Positions 6,237 to 14,074 are shown, counted from the stretch's first letter. The stretch is 64,000 bases of DNA from Methanolobus tindarius DSM 2278 (GCF_000504205.1 NZ_AZAJ01000001.1:2950879-3014878); one strand, 5' to 3'. Numbers and translations: made by a program. The notes: generated from the letters alone by a model not told the origin.

Positions 6237-6998
6237 ATGTCACAGAAAACCAGCTCTACAACAAATGCTTTCCAGAAAGTTCTCAGTATTCAAACCGATG
6301 TCCAGGGAATACTTATTGAAAGACCAAATCGTTTCCTGGCCATTGTTGAGATCGATGTGAACGGAAGAAAAAGTCAGGAAAAAGTTCACGTCCATGACCC
6401 GGGCAGGCTTATTGATATCCTGTACCCCGGAAACCGTGTACTGCTTCGAAAAGCCAGCAACCCGAAAAGAAAAACAGGCTGGGACATGATAGCCGGAAGG
6501 TCCGGAGACAACTGGATTTTAATTAACTCAGCATTTCACAGGCAAATATCCGAATGGGTAATTGAGAATAATATTGTTGACCTTTTCAGTAATACTGATA
6601 AAGTTCTTCCTGAACAGAAGTTCGGAGAGAGCAGACTTGATTATCTCCTGTTAAAAGGAGATACTGATATCTGGATTGAAGTAAAAGGCTGTACATTGGC
6701 AGAAAAGACAACCGCATCTTTTCCTGATGCACCAACAACCCGTGGAAAACGCCACCTGGATGAACTTATCAAAGCCAGATTAGAAGGTCATGAAGCCGCA
6801 ATTCTTATTCTCATATTCAGACCTGAAGCAGAATGTTTCACAGCAAATGGTATAATTGACCCGGATTTTGCCCATACTTTTGAAAAGGCACTTGAAGCAG
6901 GTGTAAATGTATTTCCACTTCTCTTTTCATTCGAAGGAAATACGGTTATGTATCATTCACAGCTCCCGCTCTGTAGGAATATTCTTTATGAAAAATAA
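6237..6998 (+). CDS. sfsA: SfsA family DNA/RNA-binding protein
   Basis: 253 residues, typical for the family. Hallmarks are ERPNRFLAIVEID near the start, HVHDPGRL, a nuclease-like core with LDYLLLKGDTDIWIEVKGCTL and the signature FPDAPTTRGKRHLDEL. The fold is an OB-like N-domain with a PD-(D/E)xK-type C-domain. Its cellular role is unsettled: the name comes from sugar fermentation stimulation in E. coli, and a DNA or RNA nuclease activity has been proposed. No ribosome binding site is seen before the ATG. It is monocistronic, divergent from the vWA gene and convergent with the radical SAM gene. Confidence 0.93.
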   Translation: MSQKTSSTTNAFQKVLSIQTDVQGILIERPNRFLAIVEIDVNGRKSQEKVHVHDPGRLIDILYPGNRVLLRKASNPKRKTGWDMIAGRSGDNWILINSAFHRQISEWVIENNIVDLFSNTDKVLPEQKFGESRLDYLLLKGDTDIWIEVKGCTLAEKTTASFPDAPTTRGKRHLDELIKARLEGHEAAILILIFRPEAECFTANGIIDPDFAHTFEKALEAGVNVFPLLFSFEGNTVMYHSQLPLCRNILYEK

Positions 6999-7022: not shown

Positions 7023-8402
7023 TCATTTTTCATTTACCAGCCAGCAGTGACAGTTTGCCTGGAAAAGATCTCTCCTTGTGAAATTTGCCGCAATACAGCT
7101 CCCCCTGCAAACAGAAAGCCACTGACACCTGCTGCATTCACCTTTCATGTCCGAGGCTTTCAGGCTCCTGAAATAGTTTAAGAATCGTGAATTATCCCAT
7201 ATCCACCTGAAAGACCTGTCTTTCACATTCTCAACATCTGCTCCCTCAAAATAGTTGCAGGGAAGCACATCTCCTTTTGAAGTGACAGTGCAGTATCCGA
7301 TGGCACCATCACATCCGATTCGTGCATCTGAATCAGTCTTAAATCCCTGTTCCGGAATTGGCTGGAAAGTACACTCAAATTCCATAGGTGCAATTTCAGG
7401 GCCATCAGCTTCCCTTTTGCCAAGCAGGAATTCTGTCAGCTCCTGCATCCTTTCCGGTTTTACTTCCAGATCAAGAGCTTCCATTCCACGTCCTGAAGGA
7501 ACAAAGGGCAGGATTCTGAATGTATGCACTCCCAGTTCTTTTCCCAGTTCATAAAGTTCAGGGATATTATCAATATTCATTGTGGTTACTGCGGCTGCCA
7601 GTGTAACAGGAACGCCAGCTTTTACCAGCAATTTAATTCCATCAACTGTCTTTTGCCATGAACCCAGAGACTGGCGAAAAGTATCATGTATGGCCGGTAT
7701 GCTTGAATCAAGACTAACCTGTGCTCTTGCTCCTATATTTGCCAGCTTCTCAGCAGCATCTTCATCTATCAGTGTTCCGTTGGTGGCTACCTGTATCAGT
7801 ATATTCCTAGAGGCAGCATATTCTGCTATGCCAAAAAAGTCTTTTCTAATCATAGGTTCACCGCCGCTGAGTATAAGCTGAGCTACTCCAAAATCAGCAA
7901 ACTCATCGACAAGCCTGCAGCAATCTTCAAACCCCAGCTCATCGTTGCATTCCTCTCCGGCACTCACAACGCAATGTCTGCATCTGAGATTGCATTTTGA
8001 TGTAAGGTCCCAGAGCACACCGGCAGGAGCAGGCACTTTCCAGTAGTTCATCCTTTCACTACGCCACCACAAAAGTCCCCTGTTTGTAAGTTCATCAAGT
8101 ACCGATCTGCTTTTTCTCATCACAGTATCCTGTTCAGAATGAAAAGAAGTACTCAATTGTGTGATTATCTCATCGAGTGTCCGGTACCCGTCACACATTT
8201 TGAGTAACCAGTATGCAGCTTCATTCAGTTCCTGAATTTCAGAACTGAGTGGGTCTTTTGTAATCCATATATCATTGTCCTTACTTATCCTGAAAGGAAA
8301 ATAAGGGACAGCAGATTTATCCGGAAGAACACTCCCACAGGTCATTCCGGTTTCTACGTTATAATTATCTGCTGTCAATATGCCATAGTGATTTTCTATC
8401 AC
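7023..8402 (-). CDS. PqqD-radical SAM-SPASM peptide maturase
   Basis: 459 residues from a GTG that overlaps the protease stop codon (GTGA). Residues about 34-115 look like a PqqD/RRE domain (peptide recognition). The radical SAM domain has the 4Fe-4S motif C137-x3-C141-x2-C144 in KCNLRCRHC and GGEP at 180-183. A SPASM region supplies C364, C371, C382, C423, C426, C432, C436, C451 and C453, enough for two auxiliary clusters. Enzymes of this architecture install thioether, C-C or other crosslinks in ribosomal peptides. Translational coupling to the M4 protease with the CPPxP array, and a nearby small WC peptide, point to one of these as substrate; that is inference. Confidence 0.9.
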   Translation of the reverse strand: MIENHYGILTADNYNVETGMTCGSVLPDKSAVPYFPFRISKDNDIWITKDPLSSEIQELNEAAYWLLKMCDGYRTLDEIITQLSTSFHSEQDTVMRKSRSVLDELTNRGLLWWRSERMNYWKVPAPAGVLWDLTSKCNLRCRHCVVSAGEECNDELGFEDCCRLVDEFADFGVAQLILSGGEPMIRKDFFGIAEYAASRNILIQVATNGTLIDEDAAEKLANIGARAQVSLDSSIPAIHDTFRQSLGSWQKTVDGIKLLVKAGVPVTLAAAVTTMNIDNIPELYELGKELGVHTFRILPFVPSGRGMEALDLEVKPERMQELTEFLLGKREADGPEIAPMEFECTFQPIPEQGFKTDSDARIGCDGAIGYCTVTSKGDVLPCNYFEGADVENVKDRSFRWIWDNSRFLNYFRSLKASDMKGECSRCQWLSVCRGSCIAANFTRRDLFQANCHCWLVNEK

Positions 8403-10510
8403 TTGATTTCCCCAAGCATCACAAGTGTCTTCTTTCTCCAGTCATGTATCCTGGTTTCTGAAATACCCAGTGTCTCTGAGAGTTCTGCAATCTTCTTTGA
8501 GTTCTCTGTTGCTTTCAGGAAGTCTCCCAGTGTTGAAATCGAACTTCCCTTAAACAGGGTTGCAGTTTCACGTCCGATACCTACAATCTCAATAATGTCA
8601 GTTTTCAATGTAATTACTGGATTCTTGACACGGATGTATGGATCATATGGTAATGGGTCCGGTCCTGGCAGACATGAAAGGCCTGGAGATGGCGGACAGG
8701 CTATGTATGGCGACGGTGGACAAACTATCATTGGAGATGGCGGGCATACAAAGTCCGGTGCTGGTGGGCAGATGTAAGGTGCCGGTGGGCATACAAATCC
8801 TGGTGCAGGCGGACATAGTACGTGCGGAGATGGTGGACAGATCATCGGTGCTATCCAGCATGTGAACGGGCATGTTACGGCTGTACCTATTCCCACAGCA
8901 GCAAAAGCATTGATTATGCTTGCTCTCCAGCGTGAATAATGTGGATTGCTTGAATAGAGATCATCAAGTGAATCCAGTACTGCATCTCTCATGTCGCTGA
9001 AATCCGAACTTGATACAAGATGTGTTGTGAGGGCCTGATAATAAATAAGTCCAAGTACATCACGACCAAGTCCCTCGCAGATCCTTATTCCCCTGTGTGT
9101 CCCTCCGGTGGCTATCAGGTAAGCAGCTTTGTTCATGATTCCACTGTTGATGTGGACTCCACCGTTATCTGAGTATCCTGTGTATTGGTCCCCTGTGTGA
9201 TCTGGCTGGTGGCCTGCTCTGGAACTATCGATTGGGTTTGCAGGGTCATATTGTCCACCATTGGTCGGATCTTCCATATTACGCAGGGCTGGTGCCGTTG
9301 TCGGCAGCCAGGGCTCTTCGCCTATGAGCCAGTTTCCGGATATCAGTGCACCGAAAACATCTGACATGGATTCGTTAAGTGCACCTGATTCGTTGCTGTA
9401 GACCAGTCCGGCTGTATGTTCTGTGACTGCATGTGTCCACTCGTGGGCTATAATATCCAGTGCGCAAAGTGAGTTATATCTTGAACCGTCACCGTTTCCT
9501 ATTTTGACATAACTGCCATTCCATGTAGCATTGTTCCAGCCGCTTCCGCAGTTTGCATAAATATGCATGTCAGCTCCTGCATCATCATAGCTGTCACGTC
9601 CATGTACGGTAAAGTAGTAGTCGTAAACCATTCTGGTATAAAGGTGGCAATCAACGTCAGGCCCCTGTCCGGAAGCAGACCAATTATTATTATTGTCTTC
9701 CGAAACAGGAGCAGGAGGATAGCCGCCATTGGCATCATGGGTAATAACTCTTGCAGAACTTGGTACCCATTGATCCTCAAGCAGGTATTTGGCTGTGCCG
9801 TGATCGTGTAGTGTGTTGATGGTGACAGAACCGGCATAGGTTCCGATTCCTGAACCTGTGGTTCTTGTGTGTCCCTGTTCGTTGTTGTATTTCCAGACCA
9901 CTTTTCCGTTAAGTGCATCAACAAAATATTCCCATTTAGCAGGTGTTTCATCCCCGCCAAGATCCTTGTCAATTCCGTCAACTGTAACATGCCATACCAG
10001 ATGTGGTTCTTTCACAAATTGTGACAGAACCATCAGTGTAGGTTCAGCATGCAGTTTTCCTCTGGAATTATTTTTGTCATCTTCAAGAACAGTCTTCAGT
10101 GCTTCTTCTCCTGTGACCTTTGCTTTGTCCGGCAGGTCAATTTCAGGAGTTAGCTTTCCGGTTGTTCCTTTTATATTATCGTCAGCATCAATATGTACAA
10201 TAATTTCACTGCCAAAAACAGGCAGTTCCTTGTATACCTGTTGCATGCGCACATGTCTGGCACCGATACGGTCGGTGTCAATCCTTTTCACAAGCATTTC
10301 CTTGTTAACAGAATTTAGCAGATAAAGGTCTTTATTAACTTCCATAAATTCTATGGCAGCCATTCCGGGATCCTTTTTTTCTGCTTTTGCAAGCAAGCCT
10401 TTAACCCTTAATGGGATACCCGTATGTTCATCCCATTTGATATCTACGTTTACATCGACATTTTTCAACTTGTCGAGTATATCCTTTTGTTTCCTGACAG
10501 GTTCGTACAT
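8399..10510 (-). CDS. M4 (thermolysin-like) metalloprotease with Cys-Pro repeat and helix-hairpin-helix tail, no signal peptide
   Basis: 703 residues from an ATG preceded by GGGGGAATAGGTA. An FTP/PepSY-type propeptide fills about 1-200. The catalytic domain has HEWTH (zinc ligands and general base) with the third ligand in NESMSD and GGVHINSGIMNKAA further on. Residues 547-617 hold ten cysteines, most in CPPxP units eight residues apart. The last ~75 residues (IVGIGRETATLFKG onwards) resemble a DUF4332-like helix-hairpin-helix domain. Unlike normal M4 enzymes it starts MYEPVRKQKDILDK with no export signal, so it may act in the cytoplasm or leave by another route. It could process the neighbouring small peptide or itself be modified by the radical SAM enzyme; both are inference. 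Confidence 0.92.
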   Translation of the reverse strand: MYEPVRKQKDILDKLKNVDVNVDIKWDEHTGIPLRVKGLLAKAEKKDPGMAAIEFMEVNKDLYLLNSVNKEMLVKRIDTDRIGARHVRMQQVYKELPVFGSEIIVHIDADDNIKGTTGKLTPEIDLPDKAKVTGEEALKTVLEDDKNNSRGKLHAEPTLMVLSQFVKEPHLVWHVTVDGIDKDLGGDETPAKWEYFVDALNGKVVWKYNNEQGHTRTTGSGIGTYAGSVTINTLHDHGTAKYLLEDQWVPSSARVITHDANGGYPPAPVSEDNNNNWSASGQGPDVDCHLYTRMVYDYYFTVHGRDSYDDAGADMHIYANCGSGWNNATWNGSYVKIGNGDGSRYNSLCALDIIAHEWTHAVTEHTAGLVYSNESGALNESMSDVFGALISGNWLIGEEPWLPTTAPALRNMEDPTNGGQYDPANPIDSSRAGHQPDHTGDQYTGYSDNGGVHINSGIMNKAAYLIATGGTHRGIRICEGLGRDVLGLIYYQALTTHLVSSSDFSDMRDAVLDSLDDLYSSNPHYSRWRASIINAFAAVGIGTAVTCPFTCWIAPMICPPSPHVLCPPAPGFVCPPAPYICPPAPDFVCPPSPMIVCPPSPYIACPPSPGLSCLPGPDPLPYDPYIRVKNPVITLKTDIIEIVGIGRETATLFKGSSISTLGDFLKATENSKKIAELSETLGISETRIHDWRKKTLVMLGEIK
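8660..8872 (-). repeat. ~24-bp tandem repeat encoding CPP(S/A)P units
   Basis: Inside the M4 protease gene seven CPP(S/A)P units plus a CLPGP variant follow each other with an eight-residue period (one unit is seven). Units differ in the three residues after CPPxP (HVL, GFV, YI, DFV, MIV, YIA, GLS). Ten cysteines fall at residues 547, 551, 558, 566, 574, 581, 589, 597, 605 and 613. The array links the protease domain to the C-terminal helix-hairpin-helix domain. Confidence 0.9.
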
Positions 10511-10524
10511 TACCTATTCCCCCT

Positions 10525-10605
10525 GGATAGCTCACACTATCCTGATTGTACGTTATTCAGGGCAATTGAAAAAGATTGTAGTTCCTCCCTTGGGCACCCC
10601 TGCCC
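10525..10605 (-). promoter_or_regulatory. Two hairpins in the leader between the WC peptide and the M4 protease
   Basis: On the minus strand a 5-bp GC-rich hairpin (GGGCA-GGGG-TGCCC, 10592-10605) comes first, then a 6-bp hairpin (GGATAG-TGTGAG-CTATCC, 10525-10542) ends just before the GGGGG ribosome binding site of the protease. They could attenuate or tune translation of the protease relative to the small peptide if both are co-transcribed. Confidence 0.4.
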
Positions 10606-10741
10606 GGCCAGATTTAAACCTTCCACTATTACTTAATACCCTACTTATAAATCCTCACTAATAATTTATAAAGTTTCCTCTGAAAATTCAATGTAATATA
10701 TTAAAATAAGTAAAGATAAACACTTAAAATAAGTAAAAAAA

Positions 10742-10939
10742 TTAATCGCTTTTCTCTGGTTTTTTCTTCTTTTCTTCTTCCACGGTTGTGTTATCACACC
10801 ATGCATCAACTTCAAAATCCGCTGCACTTTTGTTCTCGTCATTAGAGTCCGGTACTGTACACCATGTGTCAATCTGCTCATCAAGAGTTGGTATCTCTAT
10901 GTCTTCAATTTCTTCTTTTTTAGCATTTTTTTTGTCCAT
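10742..10939 (-). CDS. Small acidic peptide with two W-C motifs, candidate modified-peptide precursor
   Basis: 65 residues. I choose the ATG at 10939 because GGAG lies nine bases before it; an ATG at 10954 would add MEFCK without a clear site. The peptide has a charged N-terminal half (leader-like), then IDTWC (C27) and VDAWC (C48), the same five-residue motif 21 residues apart, each followed by a short polar stretch, and a Lys/Glu tail. These are the only cysteines. It lies upstream of, and in the same direction as, the M4 protease and the radical SAM maturase, 231 bp from the former. A precursor role is inference. It matches no family I recognise. Confidence 0.65.
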   Translation of the reverse strand: MDKKNAKKEEIEDIEIPTLDEQIDTWCTVPDSNDENKSAADFEVDAWCDNTTVEEEKKKKPEKSD

Positions 10940-11206
10940 TTTACAAAACTCCATTTTGATTTTATCATGCTCTCAATTTAGTAGAGCATATACTCCACTT
11001 TCCTGAAATTCTATCAGTTCTGAAGCTTAAAAAATGTTTTTACCGTAGAAGGAGCAGTGCCAAATTATATTAAGTTAAAAAAATAAACATTTCTGCAGGA
11101 AAATTATCATTTCCGGGAAAAAATGGGGTAGTTATATCTATGGGAATAGAGTCTGGCTGCTAAAGTTGAATATCAGGTTGGTATAAATCATTTAATGGAG
11201 ATTGTT

Positions 11207-13324: not shown

Positions 13325-14074
13325 TTAGAGAATAGGACTTATGGTCCGTAGTTCTATTATCTGTCCCCACATGTGGAAGCTCATCATATCGTCACGTTGA
13401 TAGGCGGTGAATCTGATTTCTGTTCCATCAGTTTTGAAGTCATCTGGCAGGTTAATCGGGTCATAATTTGTATCGTCAGCGCCTATGATTCCATAAAATC
13501 CGCCTTCAAGATTATTGTATGTCACAATTCCTGTGTCAGTTATGAGTTCACTTTCCGGAATGACATCGATGGTCAATTCATAACTGTCTTCGGTTCCTGT
13601 AGGTTCTTCCCATGGCCGTATGTAAATTGCGGATATGTTCTGCTCATCCATGTCGGTTACTTCAAAAATCCATGTGTGGTAACCTGGTGCACCTACCATT
13701 TCTGCTCTAATACTTGCTTCAGCGTATACATCCTCTTTAAGTTTAAGTCCTTCACTGTATGTCATATTCCATGAATATCCGGTTGTTGGATTTTCTTGGA
13801 GAGTAACGATTATTGTATCGCCAATAATAGCATAGGCTGTGCTTTGGCTCTCATTCTCTGAAAAGTGTTGAGTAACATTTGACATTGTACCTATGGAAAC
13901 ACCAGAATTGTCTGTGATTCCCGGTTGTTCTTCTACGTCTGGTGTTGTAGTGTTGATGTCATCAATACTTGCGTTGGATTCGTACTCACCTGTATCGTCG
14001 CTTTCTGATACACAGCCGCAAGTCATGCATACAAGCAAAACAACTGCTGCAACCGTAAATAATCTGATATTCAT
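13325..14074 (-). CDS. Chagasin-like (I42) protease inhibitor lipoprotein with second inhibitor-like domain
   Basis: 249 residues. The N-terminus is a lipoprotein signal (VVLLVCMTCGC), then a low-complexity acidic linker. Residues about 75-175 have the three I42 loop signatures: NPTTGYSW, a Gly-containing loop before YHTWIF, and RPWE. Chagasins block papain-type cysteine proteases by inserting these loops in the active-site cleft. The C-terminal ~60 residues (DPINLPDDFKTDGTEIRFTA) resemble a small domain often found in lipoproteins beside or fused to such inhibitors. It should sit outside the membrane. A purine-rich GGGAGATGA precedes the ATG. Confidence 0.85.
   Translation of the reverse strand: MNIRLFTVAAVVLLVCMTCGCVSESDDTGEYESNASIDDINTTTPDVEEQPGITDNSGVSIGTMSNVTQHFSENESQSTAYAIIGDTIIVTLQENPTTGYSWNMTYSEGLKLKEDVYAEASIRAEMVGAPGYHTWIFEVTDMDEQNISAIYIRPWEEPTGTEDSYELTIDVIPESELITDTGIVTYNNLEGGFYGIIGADDTNYDPINLPDDFKTDGTEIRFTAYQRDDMMSFHMWGQIIELRTISPIL

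Follow-up and report, generated by a model that had tools for sequence, protein, structure and literature searches.

Within a 64,000-nucleotide stretch of the Methanolobus tindarius DSM 2278 genome (NZ_AZAJ01000001.1:2950879-3014878, hereafter the window, part of a complete genome of 3.15 Mb), we analysed a cassette encoding a thermolysin-type M4 protease and a PqqD-radical S-adenosylmethionine (SAM)-SPASM enzyme, here called the maturase. The two genes exemplify a conserved unit of maturase and array carrier, a protein bearing a tandem cysteine (Cys) array, in which the carriers are interchangeable, and the pairing is well supported. We propose that this unit is a two-gene module composed of a carrier ending in a tandem Cys array and a downstream maturase that probably modifies the array. 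Since in methane-cycling archaea the maturase is nearly always encoded directly after an array-tailed protein, the array, rather than a small peptide encoded nearby (the WC peptide), is probably the maturase substrate. We found no description of this pairing in the open-licence papers searched.

Array carriers and maturases form a conserved unit

An earlier annotation of the window made from the DNA alone (the sequence-only reading) described three same-strand genes encoding the WC peptide, the protease and the maturase, and all three were confirmed as minus-strand open reading frames (ORFs). The protease (8399-10510, minus strand, 703 residues), our proposed array carrier and substrate, is composed of an FTP propeptide (Pfam E-value 6.5e-13), the thermolysin-type domains Peptidase_M4 (1e-28) and Peptidase_M4_C (1.3e-39), the Cys array and a C-terminal domain for which only weak helix-hairpin-helix matches were obtained. 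Its M4 membership is reflected both in these two domains and in the HEWTH and GALNES.SD motifs, which are intact in 14 of 14 genomes. The array (residues 547-617; 8660-8872, minus strand) reads CPFTCWIAPMI(CPP[SA]P..)x7 CLPGP, corresponding to seven CPPxP units flanked by CWIAP and CLPGP. The maturase (7023-8402, minus strand, 459 residues) begins with a GTG codon that overlaps the protease stop codon as GTGA at 8399-8402, confirming the translational coupling previously noted. The claim that the protease lacks an export signal was likewise borne out: a hydropathy scan found no export-signal-like N-terminus on the protease, the maturase or the peptide, while two presumed secreted proteins of the window scored clearly higher.

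In a distribution survey of the genus and family (112 genomes), protease and maturase co-occurred in 14 of the 27 Methanolobus genomes, as direct neighbours in every case, and the other 13 have neither. All 102 CPPxP units in these 14 genomes keep the Cys, all three prolines and a Ser or Ala at position +3, with 34 different linkers and a copy number of seven to nine, so the array pointed out in the sequence-only reading is real and relevant.

A profile search across 238 genomes of the class Methanosarcinia recovered 24 full-length maturase relatives, 23 of them with upstream sequence, and an array carrier lies immediately upstream of the maturase in 22 of these 23 loci. The carrier is the M4 protease in the 14 Methanolobus genomes, a subtilase in two genomes, a protein with caspase-like motifs in three and a rod protein in three; in most carrier-maturase pairs the carrier stop codon overlaps the maturase start or comes close to doing so. 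The subtilase carriers (S8 E-values of 3e-28 in G099 and 5e-27 in G084) come from a genus (g13) that we take to be the Methanosarcina group. Their arrays read CLRAPQII-CLRGPIQ in G099 and CPPAPKICPPGPIR in G084, where a contig break within the repeat splits the carrier gene. The carriers of G274, G460 and G003 are about 320-350 residues long, contain invariant HG and C motifs and end in (C-R-T-G-L-P...) units, with a stop codon that adjoins or overlaps the maturase start. The HG and C motifs recall caspase/gingipain-type peptidases and make these carriers putative proteases. Finally, the carriers of a presumably Methanoperedens-like family (f3; G490, G498 and G485) are 1.2-1.4 thousand residues long, with CarboxypepD_reg domains and (C-L-A-G-K-P) or (C-P-A-G-Q-P) units. 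They are located between a Tail_P2_I gene and eCIS_core genes (eCIS, extracellular contractile injection system), and the genomes concerned also encode a sheath. The sheath family PF04984 is present in four f3 genomes, and the fourth f3 locus starts at the maturase, so it has no upstream sequence. A role of the Methanolobus cassette as injection-system cargo was rejected for lack of a sheath gene in its own genome: PF04984 is absent from M. tindarius and from 12 of the 13 other cassette-bearing Methanolobus genomes, being present in G046.

The sequence-only reading had cast the M4 protease as a processing enzyme. This role does not hold across the family, as the maturase relatives are paired with other proteases or with a non-protease and it is the Cys array that stays constant.

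In the sequence examined, arrays of this kind are rare. Among 5364 ORFs of at least 100 residues (2.35 Mb, redundant), every array ORF, defined by at least four C..[GAS].?P motifs in 130 residues, is a carrier directly upstream of a maturase, and none was found elsewhere. A DNA pattern for two CPPxP units, searched in 393 genomes of the phylum, matched 13 Methanolobus genomes and G084, all of which have the maturase; two further genomes gave one match each, about the rate of a reversed-pattern control. The common feature of the arrays on all carriers is C-x-x-[G/A/S]. Across 12 arrays representing the four carrier types, the residue at +3 is Gly, Ala or Ser for 102 of the 114 Cys, as in the streptosactin-type spacing (C-x-x-[S/G]), compared with a mean of 25.8 and a maximum of 41 in shuffled sequences. 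Pro is usually found at +4 or +5, and positions +1 and +2 vary between carriers.

The maturase matches PqqD (PF05402, 2.2e-9), Radical_SAM (PF04055, 1.9e-24) and SPASM (PF13186, 2.4e-8), all above the curated Pfam cut-offs (37.9 bits against 23.4 for PqqD). The PqqD-like domain (residues 51-111; 8070-8252, minus strand) is a candidate recognition element (RRE) of the type found in the biosynthesis of ribosomally synthesized and post-translationally modified peptides (RiPPs); it was also detected in the G084 relative, and Pfam gave no detection in the G274 relative. The radical SAM motif C137xxxC141xxC144 and seven SPASM Cys (C364, GX4C382, C423-X2-C426-X5-C432-X3-C436 and C453) are invariant in the alignment, and because the seven SPASM Cys are present, two auxiliary clusters are expected. 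These features agree with the original description of a PqqD-radical SAM-SPASM maturase of the peptide-modifying kind. A shallow AlphaFold2 model had a mean predicted local distance difference test score of 62, was confident for the radical SAM core only and resolved the PqqD domain poorly; it was therefore not used for claims on the RRE or the SPASM domain.

Clustering among radical SAM-SPASM subfamilies, a check suggested in the sequence-only reading, placed the M4-, S8- and eCIS-operon-linked maturases in one clade (100/99), separate from the haem and mycofactocin enzymes and from further archaeal ones. The NirJ/AhbD-type gene of M. tindarius sits elsewhere in the genome and falls outside this array-linked clade. 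The best-scoring characterised families are AhbD and NirJ2 (205.9 and 205.2 bits), followed by lower scores against mycofactocin MftC (168 bits) and PapB (78 bits, cut-off 340). We rejected a haem-biosynthesis enzyme (AhbD/NirJ) on the basis of these scores of about 205 bits, far below the 500-bit cut-offs, and a defence system, for which PADLOC gave merely weak radical SAM (viperin) cross-matches to the maturase.

Outside the class, just one of the 393 genomes of the phylum (G128) came near the maturase family, without an array. The genes flanking this more distant PqqD-radical SAM-SPASM relative (L194) encode proteases whose motifs look, by eye, M43-like and papain-like, and a 107-residue ORF lies directly upstream. 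In bacterial genome contigs, plasmids and viral contigs, the relatives were mostly mycofactocin or other radical SAM enzymes, with no array among those inspected.

Further genes were observed beside the carriers. A small transthyretin-like protein precedes the caspase-like carrier in G003 and G274, and in G052, where peptide and cassette are unlinked, a 769-residue protein with a transthyretin-like region, judged by eye, is encoded directly upstream on the same strand (L101:4656-6962). Two Methanosarcina loci have a 108-residue ORF downstream of the maturase (L116:1852-2178 and L118:7509-7832). Judged by eye, this ORF is similar to the N-terminal propeptide region of the subtilase encoded upstream, and its product is perhaps a stand-alone inhibitor.

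Proposed modification of the array and competing explanations

In the proposed mechanism, the PqqD domain would bind the freshly made carrier and the radical SAM centre would abstract a hydrogen from the small residue at +3 of each Cys. The SPASM clusters would then help to bond the Cys sulphur to the +3 residue, producing consecutive thioether rings of four residues each, like those of streptosactin, a product suggested by the match in both spacing and enzyme class. The Pro following the acceptor may limit each unit and keep the chain extended. By this analogy, we give Cys-to-+3 thioether rings about an even chance of being the product, and attachment at C-alpha rather than at another carbon somewhat less than that. 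A large protein would thereby gain a stiff tail with many rings, which need not be released as a peptide: such arrays are also found on a subtilase, on a third carrier that is a putative protease, and on a rod protein that is no protease. Since one carrier is not a protease, we favour a ringed tail that stays on the protein and stiffens, protects or attaches it.

Several points weigh against this interpretation. Thioether formation is inferred from sequence spacing and enzyme class, and 12 of the 114 array Cys break the +3 rule. The caspase-like assignment of the third carrier comes from motifs, with no match in Pfam or PDB profile searches, and the maturases of this group are close to the other three groups but form no supported single clade with them. 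The background for array rarity is limited to the 2.35 Mb of examined sequence and one pattern search. Lastly, G520 encodes a maturase without a recognisable array. The 133-residue ORF upstream of this maturase (L289:6534-6932) contains CVVGGP...CGTC, is poorly assembled and broken by ambiguous bases, and could be a small-precursor version of the system.

Alternatively, the array is modified but serves as a multicore precursor, from which the attached protease domain or another protease cuts out ringed peptides that are released as signals or inhibitors. Of the four carrier types, three are actual or apparent proteases that bear a tail resembling a substrate, the repeat number varies between seven and nine as in multicore precursors, and proteases accompany the streptosactin and QhpD systems (PMC8172795). 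Against release stand the non-protease carrier with its CarboxypepD_reg rods, the presence of a conserved domain beyond the array in M4 and S8 carriers, and the absence of any dedicated exporter seen beside the cassette. We regard the multicore explanation as unlikely.

It is more doubtful still that the array is an unmodified Cys- and Pro-rich tail, engaged in disulphides or metal binding, with the enzyme acting on a small molecule or on another part of the carrier. The modification chemistry is indeed inferred, and the haem enzymes AhbD and NirJ2 are the best-scoring characterised families, but neither comes anywhere near its curated cut-off, PqqD domains are a mark of peptide substrates, and the link to arrays is constant across unrelated carriers.

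Most of what is known of radical SAM thioether chemistry concerns short peptides of bacteria. Returning to a maturase that modifies the tail of its carrier, our results suggest that tandem arrays act as portable substrate domains of large proteins in archaea, among them proteases and a protein of an injection system. A general archaeal module is conceivable, if somewhat less probable than not, in which one radical SAM family would write rows of small thioether rings on the CxxG/A/S tails of unrelated proteins. The carriers would then be proteases of the zinc, serine and caspase-like types together with a rod of an injection system, and the ringed, stiffened tails would belong to functional proteins rather than to released peptides. 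Searching for an array ORF directly upstream of a PqqD-radical SAM-SPASM gene could uncover more such proteins.

The WC peptide as an independent neighbour

The WC peptide gene (10742-10939, minus strand) encodes 65 residues from an ATG at 10939, with an alternative upstream ATG possible at 10954, and contains the two repeated (I/V)-D-x-W-C motifs of the sequence-only reading as IDTWC and VDAWC. Every one of the 27 Methanolobus genomes searched has the peptide, as do several other genera, both motifs being invariant in the aligned set; this conservation in relatives answers a check raised with the original annotation and shows that the ORF is not a chance one. Its distribution is independent of the cassette. 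Peptides with both motifs occur in the 13 Methanolobus genomes and several other genera that have no protease or maturase, and elsewhere the peptide is found in other neighbourhoods without the maturase.

The other flank of the cassette is marked by an sfsA-like gene (6237-6998, plus strand), which defines the empty site in cassette-free genomes. In cassette-free genomes with this gene order, the distance from the peptide stop to sfsA is usually 32-143 bp (for example in G051, G054, G049, G041 and G064), compared with 3.8-7.3 kb in cassette-bearing genomes. In G052, the cassette is on contig C28, and the peptide and sfsA are 32 bp apart on contig C63. Because the peptide occurs without the cassette, at empty sites and at an unlinked locus in G052, it is an older flanking neighbour and not a dedicated precursor.

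The precursor role assigned to it by the sequence-only reading, with the maturase modifying the Trp/Cys motifs and the M4 protease removing a leader, is very improbable: the peptide is adjacent on the same strand in 13 of 14 cassette genomes, its repeated [IV]DxWC motifs are conserved and a conserved segment could act as recognition sequence, but cassette-free genomes retain both motifs, the empty and unlinked sites separate the loci, and in Methanosarcina and other groups the maturase relatives are accompanied by array proteins, with no WC peptide alongside. Of the three-gene set originally proposed, protease and maturase thus stand together (14 of 14 Methanolobus genomes) and the peptide drops out as a member.

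Freed from the cassette, the WC peptide becomes a conserved methanogen small protein to study by itself. It is an unannotated small acidic/basic protein found in several Methanosarcinaceae genera (loci L039-L068), with the invariant residues W26 C27 ... K37 S38 ... W47 C48; it matches no family in Pfam or NCBIfam, and its neighbours vary. A lipoprotein encoded at 13325-14074 has a GYSW-type motif that recalls by eye the chagasin-family protease inhibitors. Of 35 loci compared, 24 contain its relatives close to the peptide gene, irrespective of the cassette.

Comparison with known systems

One close parallel is streptosactin, a type II sactipeptide. In its biosynthesis, the SPASM enzyme GggB produces two unnested rings through the alpha-thioethers Cys25-Ser28 and Cys31-Gly34 (PMC8172795). 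Both systems have a SPASM radical SAM enzyme, Cys with a small residue at +3 and a protease in the gene set. However, streptosactin derives from a short streptococcal leader-core peptide with two rings, whereas here 4-20 units end archaeal proteins of 320-1400 residues, and the Methanolobus-type maturase carries a fused PqqD domain, unlike that of the GggB system. A short leader-bearing precursor, as expected for a sactipeptide, is not conserved beside the maturase, whose constant neighbour is the large array carrier.

QhpD is a radical SAM enzyme that installs thioethers in a whole protein, with a subtilisin-like protease in the same operon (PMC8172795). The maturation of quinohemoprotein amine dehydrogenase by QhpD and QhpC thus resembles the proposed module in having a protein-sized substrate, here a proposed one, and a protease in the operon. 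It differs in that the acceptors are Asp/Glu side chains of a small subunit of the enzyme, with no tandem CxxG array, and the protease is not the substrate. The ranthipeptides freyrasin (PapB) and SCIFF (CteB) share several Cys at short regular spacing and SPASM enzymes, the cross-links being proposed in our case, but have short precursors with mainly Asp or Thr as acceptors. AhbD/NirJ and MftC, the closest curated radical SAM-SPASM families by score, have a similar core; the maturase falls below the curated cut-offs of both and, unlike AhbD/NirJ, has a PqqD domain.

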